DNA of 64,000 nt from Algibacter amylolyticus (lineage in GTDB: Bacteria > Bacteroidota > Bacteroidia > Flavobacteriales > Flavobacteriaceae), in assembly GCF_014202225.1 (NCBI RefSeq), contig NZ_JACHGE010000001.1:725320-789319 (forward strand), given 5' to 3'. The notes beneath the pieces are model-generated. The model had not been told where the DNA came from and did no database searches. It saw only the letters and a list, made by a program, of their open reading frames with translations. A program made the translations under genes and the position numbers. Positions 10,576 through 43,058 of the stretch are shown here, in pieces; the stretch's first letter is position 1, and the number at the start of each line of letters is the position of its first letter.

Positions 10576-10663
10576 TTGGGCGTTACCACAAGGGTCGGGC
10601 TTTCCATTACAAGTCCGCGCTACGTTCCTTCGCTGTGGGCTTTTCACTGCAATCCCTAACGCG
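10576..10663 (+). repeat. Dispersed element, copy A ('empty' form)
   Basis: Copy A of a five-copy intergenic family (others at 17532, 24902, 31927 and 42955). It runs from GGGCGTTACC through GGTCGGGCTTTCC, ACAAGTCC and GTGGGCTTTTCACTGC to CAATCCCTAACGC. The ends can pair (GCGTTA with TAACGC). At the position where the other copies carry a hairpin, this copy has only ACAAG. It is not coding. Confidence 0.75.
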
Positions 10664-10906
10664 GGTTTAGTAATTATCTTAAGTAATTAGTATTTACACA
10701 GCTTATCACCATAAAATAAGGGCTTAGAGTTCAGTATTAGCGGCTATTTCGCCCATTTACTATAATTATACGATTAATCAATTTTATTGTCAGATTCCCC
10801 TCTAAAACAGGTAATTAACGATTTTAAACACCATTTAATCAAATAAATTTAATATTCTTTTAGTTCCATATTACATTTCGAGGAATTAATCCTAAACCCT
10901 CTCAAA
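10664..10906. other. AT-rich intergenic stretch, nothing recognised
   Basis: With the terminator and repeat copy A it makes up the 436-bp gap between the RNase G gene and the OmpA-family gene. No reading frame, RNA gene or clear promoter pair is visible in these 243 bp. Confidence 0.5.
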
Positions 10907-12529
10907 ATGAAAACTAAACTTTGTTTTTTCATTGTCCTAGCATGCAATTTTATTATTGCTCAAGGCCCTAACAATTCCATCGCTTTTAATAACTCGCCAT
11001 ACAATTCTACAAATACATTGCCTACATATACTGTGGCTAAACCAGTTGCAATAAGCGCTAACGGTTTTAATTTCGATTTATTAGATGCTGGTGTTAGTAC
11101 GCGATATGCCGAAATTGGTTCAGGTTTCTTTAAAAATAAACTCATTATGGTATCCTCAAAAAAAATTGGAGGACTGGCTAAAATCGATCCTAATACGCAT
11201 GAGGCTTTTAAAGAATTATTTTGTTTGGATATCGATAAAAACGGTTCTTTAAGTTCGCCATTATTATTCAGTAGAATTATAAACACCAATGCCAGCGAAG
11301 ATCAATTAACCTTTTCTCCTGACGAAAATACCGTTTATTATACTCGAAGTAGTAAAGACAATTCACTTGAGTTTAAACTATACAAAGCTGAATTAGAAGA
11401 AGACTCTCATGGTAATTGGATTAATAACCAACTTTTAAGTGTTAACGATACTAATGTTTCTATTGAAACGCCTTTTGTAAATAACACAGGCGATAAATTA
11501 TATTTTTCGGCTAATTACCCAGACGCTATTGGTGGGTTCGATTTATATGTGTCAACTATTAACGCAGATGGTACTTTAGGAACTCCTGTAAATCTAGGTA
11601 ATACCGTTAATACGGTGGCCGACGAAAAGTATCCTTCTCTATCCATAGATAATAAATACTTATATTTTTCTTCTAAAGGTCACGAAAACATTGGCGGTTA
11701 CGATCTTTTTGTGAGCAAGAACTCTAAAAATGAATTTCAGGTGCCAAGAAATATGGGGAATACTATAAATACGGTATACGATGAAATAGCCTATTTTTTA
11801 GCGGCTAGAAATAAAGCGTATGTATCTTCTAACAGACCAAACGGTAAAGGAGGTTACGATATTTATACGGCAATCAATAATGAAGTTGTTCAATTTATTA
11901 AAGGGGAAATTTTAGATTTAGAAACGCAAATTAAATTACCAAATACAATAGTAATATTGAAGGATGATGAAGGTAACGAAATTGACAAAACAATAACTGC
12001 AGAGGATGCTACGTTTAGCTTTAATGTATCACCATTTGAATCCTATAACATATCGACACAAAAAGATGGGTTTAAAGACACTACGGTACAGTTTTTCGCC
12101 AATAGCGGCAGTGAAACCACTTATAAAAAGGACATTGAATTACATACAACCGAACCAGTAATTGCTAAAGTAGAAAATGAAATGCGTATTGTATTAGAAA
12201 ATATCTATTTTAATTTTAATAAATGGAATGTAAAGGAAGAGTCGTTTATATCATTAAATAAAGTGATAAAAGTTTTAAAGGCCAACCCAGACATGAAATT
12301 AGCGGTTAACGCACATACGGATAATAAAGGTAGAGATTCTTATAACCTAAATTTATCTAACAAACGTGCGGTATCTGCAGTTAGCTATTTAATTGAAAAC
12401 GGTATTTCTAAAGATCGTTTAGTATCTAAAGGTTATGGAGAAACTAAACCACTTATTGATTGTAAAACGAGCTGCTCTGATGGTGATTTACAAGCCAACA
12501 GGCGTGTGGAGTTTGTAATTGTTGAATAA
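10907..12529 (+). CDS. OmpA-family protein with WD40-like (PD40) repeats
   Basis: A 540-residue exported protein: signal peptide (residues 1-18, FIIAQ), a beta-propeller region with PD40-type repeats (about 120-320; LTFSPDENTVYYTRSS, PFVNNTGDKLYFSANYPDA, PSLSIDNKYLYFSSKG), a carboxypeptidase-regulatory-like domain (about 335-415), and a C-terminal OmpA/MotB peptidoglycan-binding domain (about 425-540; NAHTDNKGRDSYNLNLSNKRA, GYGETKP). The layout recalls PorE-like envelope proteins tied to type IX secretion, but that protein has additional TPRs and this one does not. No PorP/SprF partner is adjacent. A role in linking outer membrane and peptidoglycan is likely. Confidence 0.88.
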   Translation: MKTKLCFFIVLACNFIIAQGPNNSIAFNNSPYNSTNTLPTYTVAKPVAISANGFNFDLLDAGVSTRYAEIGSGFFKNKLIMVSSKKIGGLAKIDPNTHEAFKELFCLDIDKNGSLSSPLLFSRIINTNASEDQLTFSPDENTVYYTRSSKDNSLEFKLYKAELEEDSHGNWINNQLLSVNDTNVSIETPFVNNTGDKLYFSANYPDAIGGFDLYVSTINADGTLGTPVNLGNTVNTVADEKYPSLSIDNKYLYFSSKGHENIGGYDLFVSKNSKNEFQVPRNMGNTINTVYDEIAYFLAARNKAYVSSNRPNGKGGYDIYTAINNEVVQFIKGEILDLETQIKLPNTIVILKDDEGNEIDKTITAEDATFSFNVSPFESYNISTQKDGFKDTTVQFFANSGSETTYKKDIELHTTEPVIAKVENEMRIVLENIYFNFNKWNVKEESFISLNKVIKVLKANPDMKLAVNAHTDNKGRDSYNLNLSNKRAVSAVSYLIENGISKDRLVSKGYGETKPLIDCKTSCSDGDLQANRRVEFVIVE

Positions 12530-13052
12530 AAAATTAAGAACATAGATATAAGAATAAAGACTTGATTTCAACTAACTGACAGACAGCTGAAATTCTTATT
12601 TCTATATTCATGTAAATCTAATGTAGCATAATAGCTTTGCTCTAATTCAAATACATTTAGTCGTACAATCATGGTTTTTATTTAAAACATATTAAACCGA
12701 TTAAATACATCAAAATCGATAACGTGTTGCTCAAAAAGTTTTTAGTCGAGTATTTTATCTTATAGTCTAAAAGACAAGAAACTGATATTGCTCAGCCCTT
12801 TATTAGATATATATTTACAAAAGTTTTGAAACAGACATAAACATTTTTATATAGATATCCATTATTAATTAATTTTCCTAACTAAAAAACCACGCTATTT
12901 GCGTGGTTTTTTATGTTACAAAGTTCCTATTTACGGTTTTCCCGCAATAAAAAAATGTTAAATATTGAGTTATTTGATAAAACAAGCACTTCTACTTATT
13001 AACTGCGCTGTTTTTTTTTTCTTACTTTTATTTTAGATAAAAATAAACCCCC
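12530..13052. other. 523-bp intergenic region with an imperfect hairpin and an isolated terminator
   Basis: The region holds an imperfect inverted repeat near 12546-12608 (ATAGATATAAGAAT against ATTCTTATTTCTAT) that may end the OmpA-family transcript, and a clean terminator at 12884-12912, about 355 bp further on. No protein-coding frame or tRNA is visible. A small RNA ending at the second terminator is possible, but no matching promoter was recognised. Confidence 0.4.
12884..12912 (+). terminator. Isolated Rho-independent terminator
   Basis: AAAAAACCACGC, loop TATTT, GCGTGGTTTTTT is a perfect hairpin with A- and T-runs. It is 355 bp from the nearest upstream gene and 140 bp before the next gene, so what it terminates is unclear. 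Confidence 0.85.
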
Positions 13053-41084: not shown

Positions 41085-42944
41085 ATGAAGAAAAAAGATA
41101 CTGCACCACAACAAAACGGCGTTACTAGAAACCCATTTCCTAACTCTAAAAAAATATATGTTTCAGGAACATTACATCCACAAATAAAAGTAGCCATGCG
41201 CGAAATTTATTTAAGTGATACCAAAGATTCCATAACAGGAAAATTAACCCAAAACCAACCGGTAACCGTTTACGATACTTCGGGGCCTTATACAGATTTA
41301 GAAAAGGAAATAAATATCCATAATGGTTTAGAGCGTATTCGCGAAGCATGGATTAAAGATCGTGGCGATGTGGAAACCTTAAATGAGTTTACCTCAAAAT
41401 ATTGTAACCAACGTTTAAACGATGCAAGTTTGGACGATTTACGATTCAATTTAAAACACAAACCTAAAAGAGCGGTAAAAGGTAAAAATGTATCCCAGTT
41501 ACATTATGCAAAACAAGGTATAATTACTCCAGAAATGGAATACATTGCAATTCGAGAAAACCAACGCATAGACCAAATTACCGAAATTGCAAAACAACAT
41601 AAAGGCGAAAATTTTGGAGCTTCAATTCCCGATAAAATTTCACCAGAATTTGTAAGAAGCGAAGTGGCTCGTGGTCGTGCGGTAATACCAAATAACATTA
41701 ATCACCCAGAAAGCGAACCTATGATTTTGGGTCGAAATTTCTTAGTAAAAGTAAATGCTAATATTGGTAATTCTGCCACCACATCTTCCATAGAAGAAGA
41801 AGTGGAAAAGTCGGTTTGGGCATGCCGTTGGGGCGCCGATACCATTATGGATTTATCAACCGGTAAAAATATACACGAAACTAGGGAGTGGATTATACGT
41901 AACTCGCCCGTTCCAATAGGTACGGTACCTATCTATCAAGCCTTAGAAAAAGTAAATGGTGTAGCTGAGGATTTAACTTGGGAAATTTTTAGAGATACCT
42001 TAATTGAGCAAGCAGAACAAGGTGTCGATTATTTTACCATACACGCAGGTGTCTTATTGCGTTATGTACCCATGACGGCAAAACGTGTAACAGGTATTGT
42101 GTCTCGCGGCGGCTCCATTATGGCAAAATGGTGTTTAGCGCATCATAAAGAAAGCTTTTTATACACCCATTTCGAAGATATTTGCGAAATTTTAAAACAA
42201 TACGATGTGGCATTTTCGTTAGGCGATGGGTTACGCCCAGGCTCCATTGCCGATGCCAACGACGAAGCCCAATTTGCAGAGCTAGAAACACTAGGCGAAC
42301 TCACCAAAATTGCACGTAAGCACGATGTACAATGCTTTATCGAAGGTCCAGGACACGTACCAATGCACATGATTAAAGAAAACATGGACAAACAACTAGA
42401 GCATTGCGACGAAGCTCCATTTTACACCTTAGGTCCACTAACAACAGATATTGCTCCGGGTTACGATCATATAACCTCCGGCATTGGTGCTGCAATGATT
42501 GCTTGGTATGGTTGTGCCGTTTTGTGTTACGTTACCCCAAAAGAGCACTTAGGGCTACCCAATAAAAACGATGTTAGAGAAGGCGTTATTACCTATAAAT
42601 TGGCCGCCCATGCAGCCGATTTAGCCAAAGGACATCCAGGAGCCCAACATCGCGATAATGCGCTAAGTAAGGCGCGTTTCGAGTTCCGTTGGGAAGACCA
42701 ATTTAACCTTGGTTTAGACCCCGAAAAGGCACGCGAATTTCACGACGAAACCCTGCCTGCCGAAGGCGCCAAAATAGCCCATTTCTGTTCCATGTGCGGA
42801 CCAAAATTCTGTTCCATGAAAATCTCTCAAGAAGTTAGAGATTTTGCCGCAGAAAACGATATTGTCGATAACGAGGTTATTGCAAAAGGTTTCAAAGAAA
42901 AATCAAAAGAATTCAAAGAAAAAGGATCGCAAGTGTATCTTTAA
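41085..42944 (+). CDS. thiC: Phosphomethylpyrimidine synthase ThiC
   Basis: Radical SAM enzyme that rearranges aminoimidazole ribotide to the HMP pyrimidine of thiamine. 619 residues, a normal long form with the N-terminal extension. It has [30 protein letters not shown] and the C-terminal cluster motif C-x2-C-x4-C in [13 protein letters not shown]. It lies 46 bp after thiS. Repeat copy D follows it before the next thi gene. Confidence 0.98.
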
Positions 42945-42954
42945 CAAAATAATA

Positions 42955-43058
42955 AGGGAGTTCCCGTGCTTTTTATTAAAAGCACGGGCGGGCTTTCCGT
43001 TGCAAGTCCTCGCTCCTCCTACGTCGGGCTGTGGGCTTTACACCGCAATCCCTAACTC
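42955..43058 (+). repeat. Dispersed element, copy D, inside the thi operon
   Basis: Starts GGGAGTTCC and ends CAATCCCTAACTC, with core CGGGCTTTCC, GCAAGTCCTCGCTCCTCC and TACGTCGGGCTGTGGGC. The internal hairpin has arms CCCGTGCTTTT and AAAAGCACGGG. The start and the end both differ from the other copies in a way that keeps pairing (GAGTT with AACTC instead of GCGTT with AACGC). It sits between thiC and the next thi gene, with no T-run after the hairpin. Confidence 0.75.

Follow-up and report, generated by a model that had tools for sequence, protein, structure and literature searches.

Flavo-1 repeats of Algibacter amylolyticus fold on one strand and hold small palindromes at defined points

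What is the sequence that occurs five times in a 64,000-nucleotide stretch of Algibacter amylolyticus (contig NZ_JACHGE010000001.1, positions 725,320 to 789,319; hereafter the window), and what are the palindromes that its copies carry? The initial annotation had read it as a structured intergenic element, of no assigned function, with a single site that tolerates or takes in other palindromes. We found that it belongs to Flavo-1 (RF01705), a Bacteroidetes motif filed in Rfam as a small RNA (sRNA); no function is indeed assigned to the family, but the element itself was already in the database. Flavo-1 was thus known and unexplained, and comparison with related genomes shows that its outer frame stays in place, that palindromes drop cleanly into fixed points and that inner arms are sometimes swapped. 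Palindrome capture by Flavo-1 is therefore real, and compensatory changes together with clean presence or absence between sister species bear out the earlier reading. To the central arm (P2), which is all that Rfam covers, an outer helix (P1) and a variable hairpin (P3) can be added.

The full fold, in the Rfam orientation, is laid out as GCGTTA-GGGATTG-N-A-RY-G ... RY-G-N-A-AAGCCCGACC-[P3]-GGTAACGCC. R1, a covariance model of this fold, was trained on 26 copies whose P2 is of class ii, copy A of the window among them. At E ≤ 0.1 it recovered exactly the five window copies and nothing else (rough E 4e-7 to 6e-18), in both orientations and where they had first been read and were read again in the sequence. 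These copies and the palindromes in them are as follows.

10578–10662, minus strand: Flavo-1 copy A, minimal P3 loop, P2 tip of class ii; R1 E 5.8e-18 (A is in the training set); RF01705 31.0 bits, under the cut-off of 42
17532–17659, plus strand: Flavo-1 copy B, beside clpX; RF01705 52.8 bits, above cut-off; R1 E 4.2e-07
17566–17591, no strand given: terminator-like hairpin A6-CTGC..GCAG-T6 in the P2 tip of copy B; reverse-complemented in the relative G007
17622–17651, no strand given: palindrome CCTGAA..TTCAGG in the P3 slot of copy B
24902–25033, minus strand: Flavo-1 copy C; R1 E 3.2e-15 over 24957–25033; unmatched by the Rfam model
24908–24923, no strand given: palindrome CCTGCCTGCCGGCAGG in the P1 3′ strand of copy C
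24937–24953, no strand given: core of the CTGAGC..AG.CGAAGG palindrome in the P3 slot of copy C (G000:C1:750256-750272)
31927–32060, plus strand: Flavo-1 copy D; R1 E 4.7e-14 over 31927–32009; Rfam 28.6 bits
31999–32052, no strand given: P3 slot of copy D with the CCTGCAAGG..CCTTGTAGG palindrome
42956–43058, minus strand: Flavo-1 copy E, P1 compensated as GAGTT/AACTC; R1 E 2.4e-17; Rfam 24.5 bits
42963–42988, no strand given: P3 hairpin of copy E; inner 20 nt reverse-complemented in the sister genome G002

As had been described, copy A has a minimal P3 loop, and a different palindrome fills that place in each of copies B, C, D and E. The variable hairpin site is accordingly sound, but it is not single: at least four places take hairpins, namely the P3 loop, the P1 3′ strand, the 3′ side of P2 and the P2 tip, and both the variable tip of copy B and the second palindrome inside P1 of copy C had gone unremarked. 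The words quoted as common to the copies hold in part: copies A and B alone have GGGCGTTACC unaltered, copies A and C alone have GGTCGGGCTTTCC, and CAATCCCTAACGC is exact in A, B and C; nor are the end words exact everywhere, since copy E has GGGAGTT/AACTC, a compensated change. All five copies lie between longer open reading frames (ORFs), and the mechanically called ORFs of 87 and 83 aa that overlap copies D and E are taken for chance.

The proposed pairing of GCGTTA with TAACGC is supported by double changes across copies, the pair being compensated as GCGCTA/TAGCGC, GCGTG/CACGC, GCGCA/TGCGC, GCATT/AATGC, GAGTT/AACTC and others. To examine the fold, 94 copies from the A. amylolyticus genome (G000; 4.35 Mb, 25 contigs) were used, made up of the five window copies, three of which the Rfam search had also matched, and 89 of its 97 matches; the five weakest matches were left out. 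Over 13 pairs, 1005 cells were Watson-Crick, 27 G.T, 2 A.C and 32 other in 82 of these copies, the count omitting nine without a right block and three that failed the P1 check. Nine of the 13 pairs lay above the maximum of 1000 shuffles, and four (P1-0, P1-5, GGG3 and T1) showed no excess over them. The RY dinucleotides of P2 vary in concert, and a T-A pair of P2 that flips to A-T was Watson-Crick in 82 of 82 copies (65 T-A, 17 A-T) against a shuffle maximum of 66. In the 26-copy class-ii alignment 96.1% of cells were paired, the covariation score was 0.181 against 0.075 (0 of 500 shuffles), and eight pairs showed change on both sides (2 of 500 shuffles); further pair types were not in excess (56 of 500 shuffles), and the three P3 pairs showed no double change there. 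Support for P3 comes from a separate slot test, because this exceeded its shuffles, and not from that alignment: 186 pairs were found in 52 distinct slots against a shuffle mean of 115 and maximum of 145 (2000 shuffles), and the 36 short slots alone gave 103 pairs against 76.8 (maximum 89). The pair counts accompanying this test (774 Watson-Crick, 18 G.T, 1 A.C and 23 other in 68 A. amylolyticus elements) agree with the 13-pair count, and those of G002 were 474, 13, 1 and 16 in 42 elements.

P2 itself occurs in several classes. In class ii copies such as copy A its strands are near direct repeats of one another (TTGNARYGGAAAGCCC), so that each half could fold on itself. In 12 class iii copies (L006, L028, L030, L052, L054, L056, L057, L070, L071, L085, L094 and L096) the apical part, closed by a covarying stem, is of near-constant length and very different sequence; between L057 and its G002 counterpart L146 the loop differs while stems and flanks are unchanged. 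A further P2 class (GGGATTGAGGCATTTGTTG...GCGACTGC) is present at L211 and L222 of G002, where A. amylolyticus has class ii and class i.

How widely is the element distributed? The Rfam model, which has 76 positions, shares the P2 arm with the element described here; it has neither P1 nor P3 in its structure line and is weak on class ii copies. Only copy B passed its curated cut-off of 42 bits, with A, D and E below it and C unmatched at E ≤ 5; copies C and E, both missing from the genome-wide Rfam matches, join the family through R1. Across the A. amylolyticus genome there were 97 Rfam matches at E ≤ 1, of which 41 exceeded the cut-off, and at least 134 R1 matches at E ≤ 0.001 (150 of 883 candidates scored). 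The union of the two comes to at least 171 places, R1 adding at least 72 to the Rfam matches plus C and E, and six more copies identified by eye lie outside it. The Rfam search at E ≤ 1 also matched in five of 14 control genomes, never above the cut-off, and the weakest Rfam matches may therefore be partly chance. At E ≤ 0.001, with 89 candidates per genome scored, nine congeners had 25 to 50 Rfam matches each, and at least one match was present in 26 of 40 genomes, A. amylolyticus included. Among 20 copies from seven genomes outside the genus, read by eye, the form with P1 and P3 was seen in G012, G015, G023 and G025, and a shorter form, TAGCCC..GGGAAATAGCT without P3, in G014, G015, G023, G028 and G036. 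The initial annotation had named two outcomes that would overturn it, a genome search returning only these five copies and an alignment free of compensatory changes; matches were found genome-wide, and so were covarying pairs.

The palindromes proved to be selective in where they reside, which refines the idea of capture. The 14-mer TGCCTGCCGGCAGG, the core of a 20-bp palindrome, occurred at 15 distinct places in A. amylolyticus, whereas its reversed control had none. Dispersal over unrelated sites was not seen, since 13 of the 15 places were inside Flavo-1 (L022, L025, L075, L092, L095, copy C, L196–L199 and L202–L204) and only L200 and L201 were outside. Ten of these 13 insertions fall in P1, at TAA^CGCC or its compensated equivalent, and the other three in the 3′ side of P2, at GA^TATAG. 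Similarly, the P3 palindrome CTGAGCNNAGNCGAAGG was found at 10 places, all in Flavo-1 P3 slots, with none for the reversed control; another slot palindrome, CCTACAAGG..CCTTGTAGG, was not confined to Flavo-1, one instance being in the flank of L015. Among the 10 genomes of the genus, exact TGCCTGCCGGCAGG was detected only in A. amylolyticus, G002 and G005, with a near variant in G007 at site D. G002 had 20 distinct places, and of 16 examined, 15 lay in Flavo-1 or a remnant of it and one (L241) did not; the seven places examined in G005 by eye showed Flavo-1 pieces, often decayed.

Flank matches among the element loci of G002 were found for 62 of the 94 copies, 54 of them on both sides, and 71 sites were aligned between the two genomes (51 flank-matched plus 20 of 22 further located ones). 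The tallies below, over 66 pairs, are a reading of these alignments; 12 of the 71 pairs were parsed by eye, and the scripted G002 row for L070 is a false parse. A CCTGCC palindrome was present in G002 and missing from A. amylolyticus in at least 12 of the 66 pairs (L007, L014, L018, L020, L027, L028, L060, L061, L068, L069, L080 and L097), and the reverse case was not seen at any of the 66 sites. Nine insertions from eight of these 12 pairs were tested. In five of the nine (L007, L018, both in L027, and L028) the A. amylolyticus genome had the uninterrupted 24-mer join without target duplication, that is, presence or absence of a palindrome at an otherwise unchanged site; the other four (L014, L060, L061 and L068) had no uninterrupted 24-mer. 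At L014 the 12-mer to the left of the insert, and at L018 the one to its right, occurred once each in the A. amylolyticus DNA examined, and the base specific to the locus, lying 7 nt away, was kept. Furthermore, a CTGAG..CGAAG hairpin was gained in the P3 slot at at least four sites (L028, L060, L069 and L085), and a related hairpin at the P2 base at two (L061 and L065).

Arms were replaced as well. P2 was of another class, with frame ends and flanks kept, in five of the 66 pairs (L013, L054, L059, L069 and L090), the loop was replaced with stems kept at two sites (L028 and L057), and P2 was lost in G002 at three (L080, L097 and copy C). The losses at L080 and L097 fell between near-direct repeats of P2. 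The P3 hairpin of copy E is inverted between A. amylolyticus and G002, as is the tip hairpin of copy B in G007. At the clpX site the element was present in A. amylolyticus, G003 and G007, and a terminator-like hairpin took its place in G001, G002, G004, G005, G006 and G009; in G008 the contig ends there. At site C the element, with differing tips, was present in A. amylolyticus, G001, G002 (P2 lost), G004, G006, G007 and G008, and missing in G003, G005 and G009.

The class iii loops were also considered as captured spacers. Their apical length, from CATCC to GATATA, was 95 to 109 nt in 12 of 15 copies with unlike sequences, and 78 in L049, those of L003 and L051 being cut short by the search pattern. 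Compared with G002, six of 10 loops were conserved (L006, L049, L051, L085, L094 and L096), three were replaced (L028, L054 and L057), and one (L003) had diverged along with its flanks. This idea was dropped because the aligned loops share weak motifs, recognized by eye, and most of those compared are conserved in G002.

Wobble pairs favour folding of the Rfam strand, with 27 G.T against 2 A.C, an A.C being a G.T on the opposite strand. The gene context of 93 of the 94 copies, taken from ORFs in the flanks and thus a crude measure, comprised gene 3′ ends on both sides (34), tandem genes in the two orientations (28 and 16), divergent genes (six) and unclear cases (nine). Transcription thus runs in no constant sense relative to the folding strand, yet the two sides of the element are unequal. 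Intrinsic termination was rejected as the common role: although copy B stands where congeners have a terminator-like hairpin, the RNase E/G gene is already followed by a separate hairpin of this kind upstream of copy A. An integron attC site, judged by eye, was likewise set aside.

Given these observations, we tentatively regard Flavo-1, with a little less than even confidence, as a DNA-level folded repeat that serves as a landing frame for tiny palindromes and whose arms are swapped by copying or strand transfer between folded copies. Its elements would be dispersed, non-coding intergenic repeats of ~85–150 bp, selected for folding of one strand into three arms: the outer stem P1, the long mismatched arm P2 and the short hairpin P3. 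The fold may be used mainly in single-stranded DNA, during replication or copying. We infer DNA, rather than RNA, to be the acting molecule because the folding strand may be oriented either way with respect to transcription; the hairpins of copies B and E that are inverted between relatives count towards DNA as well. The frame would mostly be inherited in place, small palindromes would be taken up at a handful of set points, and P2 arms would at times be exchanged for another class, probably via short templated copying or strand transfer. Several results weigh against this reading. Of the 27 G.T cells, 15 occur at one pair, without which the ratio is 12 to 2 (p 0.013) among copies that are related, and tolerance of G.T is equally expected of RNA. 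Gene 3′ ends exceed 5′ ends by 64:25 next to the GGGCGTT end and by only 51:36 next to the other (binomial 4e-5 and 0.13, assuming an even split, which promoter-avoiding sites need not follow), and the tandem split of 28:16 has p 0.10. Five of the 71 alignments lacked a recognizable G002 element (L056, L070, L079, L088 and L091); flanks were altered in all five, and no exact empty site for a whole element was found among the 71, so that the alignments do not testify to its movement as a unit. Finally, no enzyme is known for the proposed movement, and passages of the Flavobacterium psychrophilum transcriptome note that Flavo-1 matches coincide with several 5′ transcribed regions.

These last transcripts, the covariation on one strand with its tolerance of G.U, and gene 3′ ends on at least one side of 81 of 93 copies with the 64:25 bias would all suit a functional RNA, either an sRNA or a folded segment at the ends of mRNAs, in which the loops would be unconstrained. 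Weinberg 2010, in the part consulted, ranks Flavo-1 as probably RNA and not cis-regulatory (PMC2864571), and a 2022 review that devotes a section to the most abundant small RNAs names it there, in a passage that states no function (PMC9029176). We consider this possible but doubtful: conservation upstream of P1 fades within ~12 of the 35 bases examined, and hence no conserved promoter-like sequence is seen there; the tandem orientations are mixed (28:16); the F. psychrophilum passages report no consistent sense of transcripts at Flavo-1; congeners differ in the presence of the element at the window sites examined; and many copies have 20-bp insertions in a P1 strand. Similar doubt attaches to palindromes that are not mobile as such, gene conversion between copies and slippage or short-repeat recombination having spread and removed the inserts. 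The inserts do sit at homologous points of the repeat, arm replacement resembles conversion, and G002 losses fall between AAAGCCC repeats (L080 and L097) or between two palindrome points (L016 and L022); but private bases are kept at L014 and L018, 7 nt from the insert, and five of the nine insertions tested have the identical 24-nt join in A. amylolyticus; any conversion tract would have to be narrower than that. Rather unlikely, in our view, is a docking frame, a one-strand-folding DNA repeat into whose fixed points 20-bp coding-free palindromes are placed by a site-specific hairpin-joining activity, neither Y1 nor reverse transcriptase, the palindromes being parasites of a repeat.

Y1 transposases and reverse transcriptases were searched for at E ≤ 0.001. 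A repetitive extragenic palindrome (REP)-type element moved by a tyrosine (HUH Y1) transposase would be intergenic, fold on one strand and leave no target duplication, as Flavo-1 does, and Bacteroidetes TnpA subclass 2.6 is described, in the passage available, as flanked by "atypical secondary structures" (PMC6006769). The sole PF01797 (Y1_Tnp) match of A. amylolyticus, however, was a domain (residues 639–708) in a 1296-aa protein (G000:C2:314303-318193, L047) that also matches Eco57I, the MmeI methylase and TaqI_C and is restriction-modification-like; no free REP-type transposase was matched in this genome. PF01797 was also seen inside ORFs of 1074 to 1287 aa in four congeners. Copy L094 lies 154 bp from the Y1-domain gene (C2:318193 versus 318347) and has an orthologue, L181, likewise near that gene in G002, a proximity that we were unable to weigh. 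Flavo-1 and Y1 were not co-distributed, G005 and G007 having at least 25 and at least 50 Flavo-1 matches and no Y1 match and G030 having Y1 and no Flavo-1; none of nine Y1 loci scanned to ~1.5 kb on either side had a Flavo-1 match at E ≤ 1, and GT[AG]G was at the hairpin foot, P1, in 0 of 85 copies. At one Y1 locus, L041 of G030, an Acido-Lenti-1 RNA match (1944–1988; 35.5 bits, cut-off 37) lies beside the transposase gene. None of 2048 boundary and length settings revealed a target site duplication (largest excess a 2-mer, 12 versus 5.7), and the inverted ends are only 5 to 6 bp, so that neither the duplication nor the terminal inverted repeats of a miniature inverted-repeat element of a DDE transposon are present. 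The initial report of no transposase nearby agrees with the absence of transposase family matches in the 10 neighboring proteins scanned, the part of the window covered. Short interspersed element-like spread through RNA would fit a one-strand fold with G.U pairs, but no reverse transcriptase (RVT_1) was matched in A. amylolyticus, and three of the 10 genomes of the genus, counting this one, have it. With neither a free Y1 nor a reverse transcriptase matched, and with the GT[AG]G tag and a target duplication both lacking, the two systems are unsupported: the Y1 route is very improbable, and the reverse transcriptase route hardly credible.

Elsewhere in the window, thiamine pyrophosphate (TPP) riboswitch matches at 38243–38333 (42.9 of 54.3 bits, under the curated cut-off) and 40675–40772 lie near thiamine genes, ThiC (41085–42944) and a TMP-TENI protein (43101–43700).

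If Flavo-1 is a DNA element, a large RNA family has been misfiled. In the passages, titles and abstracts covered, no account of P1, P3 or nested palindromes in Flavo-1 was found. Like REP sequences, bacterial interspersed mosaic elements (BIME) and REPINs with their REP-associated tyrosine transposases (RAYT), Flavo-1 is a short, intergenic, folded repeat of many copies, with a one-strand fold and no target duplication; unlike them, it has no GT[AG]G tag and no free RAYT match, and it has a three-arm fold with swapped arms. Small dispersed repeats of cyanobacteria, treated by Elhai in 2008, are said to be ~21–27 bp long, hairpin-forming, mobile and located within other repeats. The palindromes of Flavo-1 share with the GC clusters of yeast mitochondria (GC42) very small size, mobility with presence/absence polymorphism, and merger and shuffling, as passages of that work describe them (PMC4478555). 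GC42 belongs to an organelle, with target AG and putative co-conversion tracts (PMC4478555, same passages), whereas the Flavo-1 palindromes reside in a bacterial chromosome, mostly inside one folded repeat, with private bases kept in two telling cases. GC clusters leave the same question of how a palindrome of ~20 bp is copied, and the exact filled and empty pairs between sister species make it directly testable in Flavo-1.

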